From the IMG/VR virus record IMGVR_UViG_3300048797_000170, positions 1 to 45,574 of that record: a DNA stretch of 45,574 nt, one strand, 5' to 3'. The notes beneath the pieces were generated by a model. The model saw only the letters and a list, made by a program, of their open reading frames with translations, was not told the DNA's origin and did not search any database. This document shows positions 2,889 to 21,874 of the stretch, in pieces. Each line of letters begins with the position of its first letter. Position 1 is the first letter of the stretch. The DNA is from a virus. Position numbers and translations under genes: made by a program.

Positions 2889-3145
2889 GACCAGTTCCCG
2901 CTCTCGTAGTCCGTCTCGCGCGCCCGGATCGCTGCCATCAGCGCCTCGGTTTCAGAAAGGCGCCCCGTCCAGGTGCCTACCACGAGGGTGTGCTGGCTGA
3001 GGGGTACACGGAACACCCTAGCGGAGCCCTTTCTGAAAGGTGGCTCAATCTCGTGCGTGATGTCGATCTGGTAGAGCGGGGTGCCCCTGTCCTTCTTCAT
3101 GGTGTGCCAGTAGTGGTTCTTGCCGATGTCGTGCGCCTGGGGCAT
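2885..3145 (-). CDS. Hypothetical protein
   Basis: An 86-residue protein, not recognised. The N-terminal half is rich in His, Lys and aromatic residues (HDIGKNHYWHTMKKDRG) and is followed by alternating hydrophobic residues that look like beta strands (YQIDITHEIE, LVVGTWTGRL). The C-terminus is an acidic helix. It may be a small beta-barrel protein. It overlaps the downstream gene by 4 bases and lies 7 bases from the HAD phosphatase gene upstream. Confidence 0.65.
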   Translation of the reverse strand: MPQAHDIGKNHYWHTMKKDRGTPLYQIDITHEIEPPFRKGSARVFRVPLSQHTLVVGTWTGRLSETEALMAAIRARETDYESGNWS

Positions 3146-18472: not shown

Positions 18473-18663
18473 TTCTGCCCCAGTGCGGCGACGATCTGCT
18501 CAGCGACGTGCGGCTGGTAGTCGGACCAGTAGCCTTCCCACGCCCCGCACGAACAGGCGTGCCAGCCCGGATCAGAGGGCTTGCTCCCCTTGTCGCCGTA
18601 GACGTACAGGTGCCGACGCAGCGCGGATAGAACGAGCCACTCCGGCTGCTCCCACGAGTTCAT
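18469..18663 (-). CDS. Small hypothetical protein with CxC
   Basis: 64 residues starting MNSWEQPEWLVLSALRRHLY. The ATG at 18663 overlaps the primase stop and gives the expected spacing; a longer frame exists but is antiparallel to the primase. A WHACSCGAWEG segment with two cysteines is flanked by tryptophans, and a C-terminal helix follows. It couples by ATGA-type overlaps on both sides to the primase and the SNF2-type ATPase. Function unknown. Confidence 0.65.
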   Translation of the reverse strand: MNSWEQPEWLVLSALRRHLYVYGDKGSKPSDPGWHACSCGAWEGYWSDYQPHVAEQIVAALGQK

Positions 18664-19649
18664 CGGTACGACACCCCCTGCTGGTAGGAGGAACGACCTC
18701 TTGAGCAGTGGACCGCTTCCCCGATCCCCACACGGATCTGGTCCTCCGTCATGTCGCCGATGTCCTTGTTGCCCTCGGACCACGTGTTGTTGAAGAACCA
18801 TGGCTCCATGCCGAGGGTCCTCGAGGCCTCCCAGATGGCGGCGGAGGCCTTGATCCCGGCCTTGTCGTTGTCCAGTGCCACGCACAGCCTAGTGGCCCCG
18901 CGCAGCAGCATCATCTGCGCGTCACTGACCACCGCGCCGTACGAGGACACCCCGCCCTCGATCCCCAGCGAGGTCAGCCGGACCGCGTCCAGCGGGGACT
19001 CCACCAAGATCATGTTCTTGCCATCGGTCTCCATGAAGACATCCAGCCCGAACAGGGCGAAGGACTTCTGGACCCCGGCCGGGCGGTTCTTGAACAGCCG
19101 CGAGTCCTGGCCCTTCTCCTGCCAGCCGAGCAACTTGTCCCCGGGCTGCCTCGGTGTGCCGGAGAGGGGCTCGCGGATCGGGATGATCCAGGAGTGGTGG
19201 GCGTCCTCCCAGCGCACGGTGTGGGCCCGGCACGCCTCCACCGTCAGCCCGCGTGCGTCGAGGGCCCACTGCGGCGGGTCGGTGTAGACCGCCAGCCGTG
19301 CCTCGGACATCTTCACCAGCCGGAACGGGTTGGTGTACGCCTCCTTGACGCGCTCCAGCCGCTCGCTGAGCATCGTGAAGTCGACCTCGTGCTCGGCGGC
19401 GAGCCAGTCCCGCGCCTCGGCGGTGGTGATCGTCAGCATATCGGCGACCAGGGACGCTAGACCGCCCTTGTACCCGCACGAGAAGCAGAAGTGCGCCCCG
19501 GTCTCGGCGTTGATCGACCACGAGGGCGAGTTGTCGGCACGCCCTGTGGTGGCCTCGTGCCCCGGGCACAGCGCGACCAGTTCGTCGCCCTTGGTCTCGA
19601 GCACGTCGATGCCGATGCTGCTCAGCAGGTCTTCGGTGACCAGGATCAT
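18660..19649 (-). CDS. dnaG: DnaG-like DNA primase
   Basis: 329 residues from the ATG at 19649, which overlaps the helicase stop (ATGA). It makes RNA primers for the phage polymerase. The CHC2-type zinc finger uses C28, H31, C55 and C58 (VALCPGHE, HFCFSCGY). The TOPRIM domain is seen as MILVESPLDAVRL, where the glutamate is the catalytic base, and RLCVALDNDKAG with the DxD metal pair. It is short for a DnaG and lacks a helicase-binding C-terminal domain, as is common in phage primases. The next gene upstream is the DnaB-like helicase, so the two act together. Confidence 0.9.
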   Translation of the reverse strand: MILVTEDLLSSIGIDVLETKGDELVALCPGHEATTGRADNSPSWSINAETGAHFCFSCGYKGGLASLVADMLTITTAEARDWLAAEHEVDFTMLSERLERVKEAYTNPFRLVKMSEARLAVYTDPPQWALDARGLTVEACRAHTVRWEDAHHSWIIPIREPLSGTPRQPGDKLLGWQEKGQDSRLFKNRPAGVQKSFALFGLDVFMETDGKNMILVESPLDAVRLTSLGIEGGVSSYGAVVSDAQMMLLRGATRLCVALDNDKAGIKASAAIWEASRTLGMEPWFFNNTWSEGNKDIGDMTEDQIRVGIGEAVHCSRGRSSYQQGVSYR

Positions 19650-21874
19650 GGGATCATCGCTCCTAGTTCCTCGAACTCGCCTGTGGTCCAGTCCCACTTC
19701 AGGGCGGTCTCGGCGGGGCCGGTGTTACGGGATGAGACCACCTTCAGGATCCTCTCCATCGGGTTGTCCTCGTCAGCCTGCAGGCCCAGGATCACGTCCG
19801 AGTCCTGGAAGAACGACGACGAGTTTCCTGTGAAATACACGTTTCCTTTGCGCCTGGCGAACCAGGTGCTGTTCTGGGTGGTGGGGCACCAGATGATCCC
19901 CGTGTGGGTCACCGCGCGGGCCACAAACCTCCGATCCTGCGCGGCGGAGGCGATAGGTGTGACGACCTGACGCTTGCGCATACCAACCCGCCACATCCCG
20001 GACGGATCCTGCTGGAGGCCAGTGTTGATCCCTGCCAGCGTGCACGCGAACTGGAACATCTCGGCGGCGTCCCGCCGTTTCTGGGACAGCGCATTCGGGC
20101 CGTTGTTGTCCGCCAGCATTGACACCCGGATGAACGAGTGCAACTGATCCTTGGTCAACTTCCGCAGGAAGTCCCAGGTGGGGACCTTATCGGGAGCGTT
20201 TGCCAGCAGCGCCCTTCCGGCATCCACACTCAGCCAGAACTCGGTAATCCCCTTGTCGCGTACGTTCGCGCGCCAGCGAGGGGCGCCATCGCTGCACCTC
20301 CCCATGCGTGGGATGGGGCCGAACCACTCGGACCCGAACTCCTTCTCTAGCAGGTCCCGGATGGACGTGGTGTGGTCGAGGTTCACGGTGTGTGACTGGG
20401 TGATCCCCACATTCCCATGACGCCCGTTGATGTGACCCTCGGTCCAGAACCAGGCCATCAGGTCCACGTACGAGTCCGTGTACGTCGGCATCGTGGGGCA
20501 CGTGGTTTCGGCGGCAGTGATCAGGTAGTCGACGGCATTCAGGTCCCCCGTCGTTCGCCACTCTCGATCCACGGTTCCCCGGCGCGAATAGTGGTGCAGC
20601 ACCGGCCATCGGTGCTGCATCGTGGTGAGTGAAGAGTGCGCCTTCCCCTCCATCAAGGCCATCGTCCGGGTCATCTCCGGGAACACGTTCACCGCCTGCA
20701 CAGGCTGCCACTCCGATAGGCCGCTGTCGTGGTTCAGGGTGAGTGTCAGGTCGCCCACCTGGAGAGTGTCGTAGGTCTTCCACCCCCGCTGGGTCAGGAT
20801 CTCGGTCTCTTCGTCGACGCAGTAGCCGATGGCGTCGGCACTGACCTGCCCCTTCTTCATCTTCCACAACAGCACCTGGGTGGTGATGATGATCGGGATC
20901 TTGAGTTTCTGGGCGGACTTCTTCAGCGAGCGGGTGATGTTGGTCAGCGCCTGCGGCGTGTTGCACTCCCCGGTGACCTCGTCGGTCATGAGGTAGACGC
21001 CATCGATGACCAGCATCGAGGGCCGGAGTTGCTCCGCCTTGGCGGTGATCGCGCTGACGCTCAGCCCGGAGACCGCGTCGGTCAGGATGAACGGGTTCGG
21101 CATCGCGGCGGTGGCGGTCAGCATCGCCTCGTAGAGGCGCTCCTCCATCAATGACAGTGTCCCGGTGCGCAGGGAGGAGTGTGAGATCTTGGCCCGCATC
21201 GCGTCGTAGCGCTGCTGCTGCTCGGCGTTGCTCATCTCGAACGACTGGAACAGTGCCGTCGCGCCGACGTTGTGGGCGTTGATCGCCATCTGCATGGCCA
21301 GCGTCGACTTGCCGACCTTCGGGGCGGCGATGATGGTGACCAACTGCTCGGGCTGCAGGCCCGAGGTGGCCTTGTCGATGGTGGGGAATCCGGTGGGTAG
21401 CCCCAGCAGCCCGTTAGGGAGCGCCTGGAACGCCTGGTAGGCGGTCAAGCGGGACAGCGGGTCGGCGATCATGTCCAGGTCGGAGACGGTAGATCCGACG
21501 GCCTGGATCTTGCCCAGGCCTGCGGTCAGCACCGCCAGCGCGGGCCCCGAGGACGGGTCGGCGACGAGCGCGTCGGCCGCGTCCTGGACCATCCGCACGG
21601 TCTCCATCCGCTGATGGAAGGCGACCGTCTCGTCGGCCAGGTACTCGATGGTGTCAGTGACGTTGAGCAGTCGGAAGTTGGGGTAGTTGTTCTTCACCGT
21701 GACGGAGGTGGGGACCTCGTCGTACTTGGCCCAGTGGGCCTTGGTGAAGGCCCAGACCTGCTTCGCCTCGGGGGAGGTGAAGTAGGTGTCGTCGATTCCC
21801 CGAACCAGGATCGGGCGGATGTCGCGGTCCCGGATCGCCTTGCTCAGCAGCCGGATGTCGTTGTCAGCCGCCAT
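19646..21874 (-). CDS. dnaB: DnaB-like replicative helicase containing an intein
   Basis: 742-residue precursor; the mature extein is about 409 residues after removal of a 333-residue intein (precursor residues 352-684). The N-terminal domain is DnaB-like and helical. The RecA-fold core has Walker A APKVGKST (184-191), Walker B SMLVIDGVYLM and an IIITTQVLLW strand. The intein separates ADAIGY from SSSFFQDSDVILGL, inside the conserved H4-type loop that contacts DNA. The helicase unwinds the phage fork together with the primase downstream and the DnaC-like loader encoded three genes upstream. Confidence 0.92.
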   Translation of the reverse strand: MAADNDIRLLSKAIRDRDIRPILVRGIDDTYFTSPEAKQVWAFTKAHWAKYDEVPTSVTVKNNYPNFRLLNVTDTIEYLADETVAFHQRMETVRMVQDAADALVADPSSGPALAVLTAGLGKIQAVGSTVSDLDMIADPLSRLTAYQAFQALPNGLLGLPTGFPTIDKATSGLQPEQLVTIIAAPKVGKSTLAMQMAINAHNVGATALFQSFEMSNAEQQQRYDAMRAKISHSSLRTGTLSLMEERLYEAMLTATAAMPNPFILTDAVSGLSVSAITAKAEQLRPSMLVIDGVYLMTDEVTGECNTPQALTNITRSLKKSAQKLKIPIIITTQVLLWKMKKGQVSADAIGYCVDEETEILTQRGWKTYDTLQVGDLTLTLNHDSGLSEWQPVQAVNVFPEMTRTMALMEGKAHSSLTTMQHRWPVLHHYSRRGTVDREWRTTGDLNAVDYLITAAETTCPTMPTYTDSYVDLMAWFWTEGHINGRHGNVGITQSHTVNLDHTTSIRDLLEKEFGSEWFGPIPRMGRCSDGAPRWRANVRDKGITEFWLSVDAGRALLANAPDKVPTWDFLRKLTKDQLHSFIRVSMLADNNGPNALSQKRRDAAEMFQFACTLAGINTGLQQDPSGMWRVGMRKRQVVTPIASAAQDRRFVARAVTHTGIIWCPTTQNSTWFARRKGNVYFTGNSSSFFQDSDVILGLQADEDNPMERILKVVSSRNTGPAETALKWDWTTGEFEELGAMIP
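19823..20821 (-). other. WCT-type intein with degenerate LAGLIDADG domain
   Basis: 333-residue intein in the helicase. It starts CVDEETEILTQRGWKTYD and ends VYFTGN, with Ser following. Block B reads TMQHRW (TxxHxW), block F IIWCPTT, and block G FTGN. The Trp, Cys and Thr are therefore in the noncontiguous positions that define class 3 inteins, while Cys1 is also present. The penultimate residue is Gly rather than His. The insert carries a LAGLIDADG-type first helix (YVDLMAWFWTEGHIN). A second helix (LHSFIRVSMLADNN) is poorer, so endonuclease activity is uncertain. Confidence 0.88.

Follow-up and report, generated by a model that had tools for sequence, protein, structure and literature searches.

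A phage helicase intein with both Cys1 and the Trp-Cys-Thr set, and its apparent family in phages and actinobacteria

The helicase gene and its intein

The window, by which we mean the whole stretch of DNA analysed, is a 45,574-nt IMG/VR virus record with genes for a terminase, a DNA polymerase, a primase, two helicases, and baseplate and tail-sheath proteins. This gene content indicates that the phage is tailed and that its tail is of the contractile type. No tRNAs were found across the window. One of the helicase ORFs (Pfam DnaB_C, 2.5e-29; PHROG 19 DnaB-like helicase, 2.9e-51) is interrupted by an in-frame intein. The features of this region, all on the minus strand, are as follows.

18660..19697 (-): DNA primase gene, neighbour of the helicase gene (PHROG 47, 3.4e-30)
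19646..21874 (-): DnaB-type replicative helicase gene, 742 aa, interrupted by the intein (Pfam, PHROG, empty-site alignment)
19820..19822 (-): Ser+1 of the C-extein, proposed acceptor of the branched ester
19823..20821 (-): intein, 333 aa, between ...SADAIGY and SSSFFQDSD..., helicase residues 352-684
19823..19831 (-): end of block G, T331-G332-N333 (Thr G:5, penultimate Gly, terminal Asn)
19886..19891 (-): block F W311-C312; Cys F:4 is the class 3 nucleophile position
19952..20509 (-): LAGLIDADG-type homing endonuclease domain, intein residues ~105-290, borders approximate (AlphaFold2 model and structure matches)
20102..20134 (-): second LAGLIDADG-like motif, FIRVSMLADNN, with Asp238
20435..20467 (-): first LAGLIDADG-like motif, VDLMAWFWTEG; Gly129 invariant and Glu128 nearly so in 58 aligned rows
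20606..20623 (-): block B core T67-M-Q-H70-R71-W72, a class 1 style TxxH followed by Trp B:12
20819..20821 (-): Cys1 codon, the class 1 nucleophile position

The intein frame is free of stops, begins with C-V-D-E-E-T and carries blocks A, B, F and G, and its removal restores a conserved helicase of 409 aa. The predicted splice junction, SADAIGY^SSSFFQDSD, matches uninterrupted helicases, and the site is empty in 80/80 helicase loci, a single alignment running across it in each (L029-L108, the 80 highest-ranking of 140 retrieved by helicase likeness). An earlier note on this DNA, made from the letters alone, had placed an intein in the helicase at exactly these coordinates, and both the placement and its residues are borne out: Cys1, TMQHRW, IIWCPTT, YFTGN and Ser+1 are all present, and the penultimate residue is Gly (G332), not His. 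Trp B:12 lies two residues after the block B His, in agreement with the structure of the engineered gp41-1 C1A/F65W/D107C intein (N-side alignment). By chance 0.01 matches to a WC...T...TGN pattern would be expected in the window, which has one.

By its first residue the intein would qualify as class 1, which has Cys, Ser or Thr there. It also has the Trp B:12, Cys F:4 and Thr G:5 (W72, C312, T331) of class 3. The absence of a class 1 nucleophile at residue 1 is, according to PMC3196547, part of the class 3 definition, and on this point the window intein, with its Cys1, falls outside the class.

Scans of the whole helicase protein against Pfam and NCBIfam (E <= 0.1) returned the helicase and weak other matches, and no intein model. 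These model libraries miss the intein type of the window, and the annotated phage records that hold relatives name the host genes only (portal, TerL, DNA methylase).

Fold and endonuclease domain

The intein was modelled with AlphaFold2, together with five extein residues on each side, from a 49-row alignment. The model (mean pLDDT 94.6) has an intein fold plus a LAGLIDADG fold, and at full length it matches LAGLIDADG-bearing inteins, with TliVMA (Z 24.8) and PI-PfuI (Z 22.2) among the matches listed. The endonuclease domain has the two-motif fold of I-DmoI (4unb, Z 13.9 over model residues 117-291). When the splicing domain is taken by itself, the best listed match is AceL NrdHF (6zgq; Z 18.9, rmsd 1.9, 149 residues), and the next ones listed are Ssp DnaB (Z 17.2), NrdJ-1 (16.9), the engineered gp41-1 WCT intein (15.3) and the class 3 Msm DnaB1 intein (14.5). 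Taken alone, such differences in Z are weak evidence. The window intein is full-length, and probably active and mobile.

A family with Cys1 and the Trp-Cys-Thr set

A scan of phage proteins with the intein matched 89 of 50,697 records, the best at 42% identity, and a scan of proteins from viral contigs gave 27 loci, one of its six seeds covering residue 1. Host proteins of the relatives include portal proteins, terminases and a DNA polymerase, and this spread marks the intein family as mobile. The earlier note's association of the intein with phages is supported.

Further scans left residue 1 out of the query, the alignments starting at residue 8 and the seeds lying only in blocks B, C and F. 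They yielded 19 bacterial (Actinomycetes) and 76 viral loci, some contigs being repeated (e.g. L186 and L003). Residue 1 was Cys in 95/95 of these loci (L155-L249), at the aligned place in 90 and one residue upstream in five. Because the viral-scan seeds lay in block B or block F, Trp and Cys F:4 were favoured singly, not jointly. An extra scan seeded from L026 recovered its own contig alone. Two pattern scans of viral contigs for blocks F and G (31 and 0 stretches) were discarded as evidence; known pattern-bearing contigs such as L002 had been missed, and the seven of the 31 stretches that were translated were all chance matches.

The residue table holds 135 rows including the window intein, 103 of them non-redundant at <0.9 similarity, with L028 (a 24-residue match) and two decayed copies, L149 and L151, set aside. 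Cys occupies residue 1 in 135/135 rows. At B:7 there is Thr in 130, Ser in three, Asn in one and Val in one, and the block B His is present in all 135. Position B:12 is Trp in 129 rows, Val in five and Cys in one; F:4 is Cys in 134 and Gly in one; G:5 is Thr in 132 and Ser in three; G:6 is Gly in 134 and Phe in one, and G:7 Asn in 134 and Gly in one. The Trp at F:3 (135/135) is a circular count, as it served to locate F:4. The +1 residue is Ser or Thr in 115/120. In a 58-row alignment C1, H70, W311, C312, T331, G332 and N333 are among ten invariant columns, and Arg324 is also invariant. Since the rows were gathered by likeness to the window intein, common descent may contribute to this conservation besides selection.

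Judged by these residues, the window intein belongs to a large family of phage and actinobacterial inteins that combines the entry side of class 1 (Cys1 and TxxH) with Cys F:4, Thr G:5 and usually Trp B:12. The earlier note had expected a further example of a mixed type of which a few had been reported. As a new member with Cys1 and the full W-C-T set the intein is such an example, and mixed inteins have reportedly been described before; "few" does not hold, Cys1, Trp, Cys and Thr occurring together in 95/103 non-redundant relatives, found by likeness.

Several relatives deserve mention in their own right. A plasmid of Streptomyces violaceusniger (pSTRVI02; L152, from position 3001 onwards) carries an endonuclease-free mini-intein with Cys1, HRW, WC and TGN that is unannotated as an intein. 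The DNA polymerase of Escherichia phage ESCO32 (L154) holds a 245-aa intein with Cys1, HRW, WC, TGN and Cys+1, which is remote from all others and has the longest end branch in the 113-row tree described below. On contigs L012 and L013 the end of a second intein of the WC...TGN type lies near position 250, ~3 kb upstream of the first.

In the relative from Streptomyces tateyamensis (L171) the block-F Cys and the terminal Asn are both replaced by Gly, and with both residues lost we read it as decayed. The free-standing ORFs L149 and L151 on Streptomyces plasmids, which have neither Cys1 nor a terminal Asn, likewise resemble decayed copies. That the window intein too has decayed and lost splicing, as such relatives could suggest, is nevertheless highly improbable, as its frame is open through a replicative helicase, all conserved residues are present and the model is a confident one by its pLDDT.

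Comparison with class 3 and class 1 inteins

Three sets were assembled for comparison. The bacterial class 3 set consists of 17 DnaB inteins, taken from genomes in the same family as L156 (Gordonia asplenii; 17 of 20 regions obtained). All 17 have Ala1, Asp at B:7, the WCT set and a His-Asn end, and none has TxxH. The phage class 3 set has 13 rows, hand-picked from the listed records. Their residue 1 is Ala in five, Leu in two, Ser in two and Gly, Pro, Asp and Cys in one each; Cys F:4 and Thr are present in 13/13 and Trp B:12 in 10/13, at least one of the exceptions (L322) being mis-cut. The class 1 set comprises 22 rows, mostly DnaB-a, after three of 25 were dropped as mis-cut or of another kind. 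All 22 have Cys1 and Asp F:4, with Thr at B:7 in 20 and Ser in two. According to PMC7891396, class 3 inteins have no conserved residue at B:7 and TxxH is typical of class 1; Ser or Thr at +1 is described as a class 3 habit (PMC5222942).

With the classical class 3 inteins (mycobacterial DnaB-b / Msm DnaB1, phage TerL and RecB) the window intein shares the W, C and T set and the mostly Ser or Thr +1 residue. They differ in that their residue 1 is mostly Ala or another non-nucleophile, their DnaB rows are without TxxH, they end in His-Asn, their block F is different and they form a separate branch. With the mycobacterial class 1 DnaB-a inteins it shares Cys1 and TxxH, and the insertion site corresponds (RESG^SLEQDAD vs AIGY^SSSFFQDSD, judged by reading both motifs). 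Those inteins differ in having Asp at F:4, Phe or Leu at B:12, Val or Leu at G:5 and a His-Asn end.

The two kinds can occur in one genome. In phage GX15bay the portal protein carries a Cys1 + WCT intein (L114) and PhoH a classical class 3 one with Ser1 (L319), and the phages Violet and Pleione each have rows of both kinds as well.

Trees were built with the trait columns removed, and the root was put on the class 1 rows by choice. In the first (113 rows, 111 columns) 25 class 3 rows form one branch (100/94) and 75 Cys1-family rows another (100/99, length 2.57). Within the latter, a branch (97/94) sets 69 Trp rows apart from six rows that have Val or Cys instead of Trp at B:12. A second tree of 79 rows and 109 columns adds the Violet RDF, phiTE NrdB and Pleione nucleotidyltransferase inteins and the N part of AceL NrdHF. 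Here the Cys1 family, with AceL NrdHF and the RDF and DNA-methylase inteins, forms a branch apart from class 3 and class 1 (100/100; 53 rows with the AceL N part), and the class 3 rows (96/82) and the Trp rows (88/74) are recovered; two long rows meet there. When these two rows and AceL are left out, in a third tree, the Trp rows reach 99/95 (bootstrap not fully settled).

The family of the window intein lies outside the class 3 clade in all three trees. Trp needs two changes on these trees when all class 3 rows are scored as Trp. With 109-111 columns only, an AU test did not reject a tree that holds all WCT rows together in one clade (p 0.229), so that the triad may also have had a single origin. 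The trees thus favour two origins of Trp without demonstrating them.

AceL NrdHF and the possibility of a class 3 mechanism

The split intein AceL NrdHF has Ala1, an MCT set and Ser at B:7, and the penultimate His is absent (PMC7891396). Its class 3 mechanism is proven: C124A and C124S are dead, and a thioester intermediate forms (PMC7891396). Its N part scores 45.0 bits with a profile of Trp-less Cys1 rows, 21.0 with the Trp (WCT) rows, 10.6 with class 1 and 7.2 with class 3, and leave-one-out controls between the Cys1 family and class 3 assigned 70/70 correctly. Among the matches listed, AceL is also the top PDB sequence match of the Cys1-family profile (E 4.5e-4). Its placement with class 3 was not rejected by an AU test (p 0.42).

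The Cys1 intein in NrdB of phage phiTE (L342) matches AceL at 6.3e-6. A phage search with the AceL N part matched 11 records, headed by four Pectobacterium NrdB inteins, and a scan for Nrd-type relatives with other first residues returned phiTE itself only. The exteins of AceL have Glu before the intein and Ser+1, Met+2 and His+3 (PMC7891396). These residues fit the phiTE flanks, E^TIH, so that the two inteins probably share one insertion site and could be Cys1 and Ala1 alleles of each other.

AceL NrdHF resembles the window intein in profile kinship, splicing-domain fold, the block-F Cys and Thr and the lack of a penultimate His, and differs in its Ala1, Met B:12, split form, absence of a LAGLIDADG domain and proven class 3 mechanism. 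Given that a proven class 3 intein with Ala1 appears to fit the Cys1 family, the block-F Cys would be able to initiate splicing on this scaffold and Cys1 would not be indispensable to it.

Tori and Perler reportedly described two mixed inteins in 2011, Catera Gp206 (Ser1 + WCT) and the Nocardioides JS614 TOPRIM intein (Cys1 + WCT), which share with the window intein a residue-1 nucleophile next to WCT; Catera Gp206 is reported to be class 3, its Ser1 not being required. The Nocardioides intein was not found among the relatives retrieved, and a literature search found no paper on it. For Catera and for the Bethlehem RDF intein, the putative counterparts in Pleione (exonuclease) and Violet (RDF) served as stand-ins. 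The Catera-type Pleione intein (L315) has Ser1, HLW, Cys F:4 and Thr, and differs from the window intein in its His-Asn end and its place among the classical class 3 rows of the tree.

The window intein could be of class 3 with a silent Cys1, where Cys312 would attack the N-scissile bond and pass the N-extein to Ser+1, Cys1 being dispensable. The full WCT set, the frequent Ser or Thr at +1, the behaviour of AceL as best listed splicing-domain match and family member by profile score, and that reported for Catera, with its Pleione relative, all speak for this. The earlier note leaned to this view, stating that splicing of the reported mixed inteins relies on the WCT residues and that class 3 predicts tolerance of Cys1 loss. 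Put so, the claim is not supported, Cys1 being as invariant as the block-F Cys and TxxH being kept. The family also lies apart from classical class 3 in every tree, and AceL itself acts like a class 1 intein at B:12 (PMC7891396). We consider a class 3 mechanism with silent Cys1 possible but doubtful.

RDF inteins and the possibility of a class 1 mechanism

The Violet RDF intein, at 317 aa as long as the Bethlehem RDF intein, has Cys1, TxxH, VWC, Thr, Gly-Asn and Ser+1. The mycobacteriophage RDF intein is unlike the window intein in its Val at B:12 and in being counted as class 1. The Bethlehem gp51 RDF intein splices completely with Gly316, the G316H change slows splicing, and the mutant forms a disulfide-bonded precursor conformer (PMC5050341). 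The paper does not name the cysteines of the conformer, and the changes that it describes include those of the penultimate residue and of an endonuclease residue.

A plain class 1 mechanism would have Cys1 transfer the N-extein to Ser+1, with Cys312 filling the usual place of Asp F:4 and Trp and Thr serving as packing. Cys1 and TxxH are as expected for it, and Cys at F:4 is known from class 1 inteins (PMC3196547). The Gly-Asn inteins of phages, RDF among them, are treated as class 1 (PMC5050341), and relatives with Val or Met for Trp are otherwise alike, the RDF one splicing. Against it, Cys F:4 and Thr G:5 are kept more strictly (134/135 and 132/135) than a stand-in seems to need, and AceL shows that this position is able to act as a nucleophile. 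We regard a plain class 1 mechanism, too, as possible but doubtful.

Splicing with both cysteines

What the present analysis shows is anatomy, the empty site, conservation, fold and kinship. The best explanation, to which we give a probability of about 45%, is that Cys1 and Cys312 both work in splicing, where we infer splicing itself as well as its chemical steps. Thr67 and His70 would strain Cys1, which would first take the N-extein as a linear thioester. Cys312, in the same pocket, would then act either as a second thioester carrier passing the N-extein to Ser+1 or, alternatively, as an indispensable acid/base replacing the usual class 1 Asp. Asn333 would cyclise and the exteins join. As in AceL, there is neither a penultimate nor a block-F His to aid the cyclisation, and our guess at a helper of this step is the invariant Arg324.

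We prefer the joint use of both cysteines because it explains best why intact copies lose neither. In the rows compared the lone exception at F:4 is the decayed L171, and Thr B:7 is kept in 130/135 as in class 1, vs Asp in 17/17 DnaB class 3 inteins. Cys1, W, C and T persist even in the mini-intein L152, and the Violet RDF intein, a family member with Cys1, C, T and Gly-Asn, equals in length the Bethlehem RDF intein, which splices fully. The need of the Ala1 intein AceL NrdHF for its block-F Cys argues against Cys1 being indispensable to the scaffold, and Catera Gp206, in which Ser1 is reportedly not required, points likewise. Conserved Cys1 could also serve fold or redox control, not catalysis.

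Meaning for the origin of class 3 inteins

WCT alone does not make the window intein class 3. A literature search, with subscription papers mostly outside reach, found no paper describing the Cys1 + WCT family and, beyond the reported work of 2011, no test of the initiating Cys in the window intein or its Cys1 + WCT relatives. What is added here is that the mixed kind forms a large and coherent family, distinct from classical class 3, and that it is surrounded by relatives without Trp and, going by profile score, relatives with Ala1. The survey of 1701 class 3 inteins was defined by the absence of Cys1 (PMC7891396), which leaves this family out. This suggests that class 3 surveys of such a design omit it by definition, and that the mechanism should not be assigned from WCT alone.

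When WCT and C1A were grafted onto a class 1 intein almost no splicing resulted, and the simultaneous changes needed were called improbable (PMC7664689). The present natural family offers a stepwise path to class 3 inteins: both nucleophiles are retained in it, some members are without the Trp, and a proven class 3 intein with Ala1 appears to belong to it. It is conceivable, if rather improbable as a whole, that the triad arose twice, Trp being gained, independently of classical class 3, in a Cys1 lineage that already had Cys F:4 and Thr G:5, that Cys1 members splice by a relay from Cys1 over Cys F:4 to Ser or Thr +1, and that class 3 splicing arose anew in AceL NrdHF via a change of Cys1 to Ala in an allele at the phiTE NrdB site. 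If this were true, the family would be a surviving link between the two classes.
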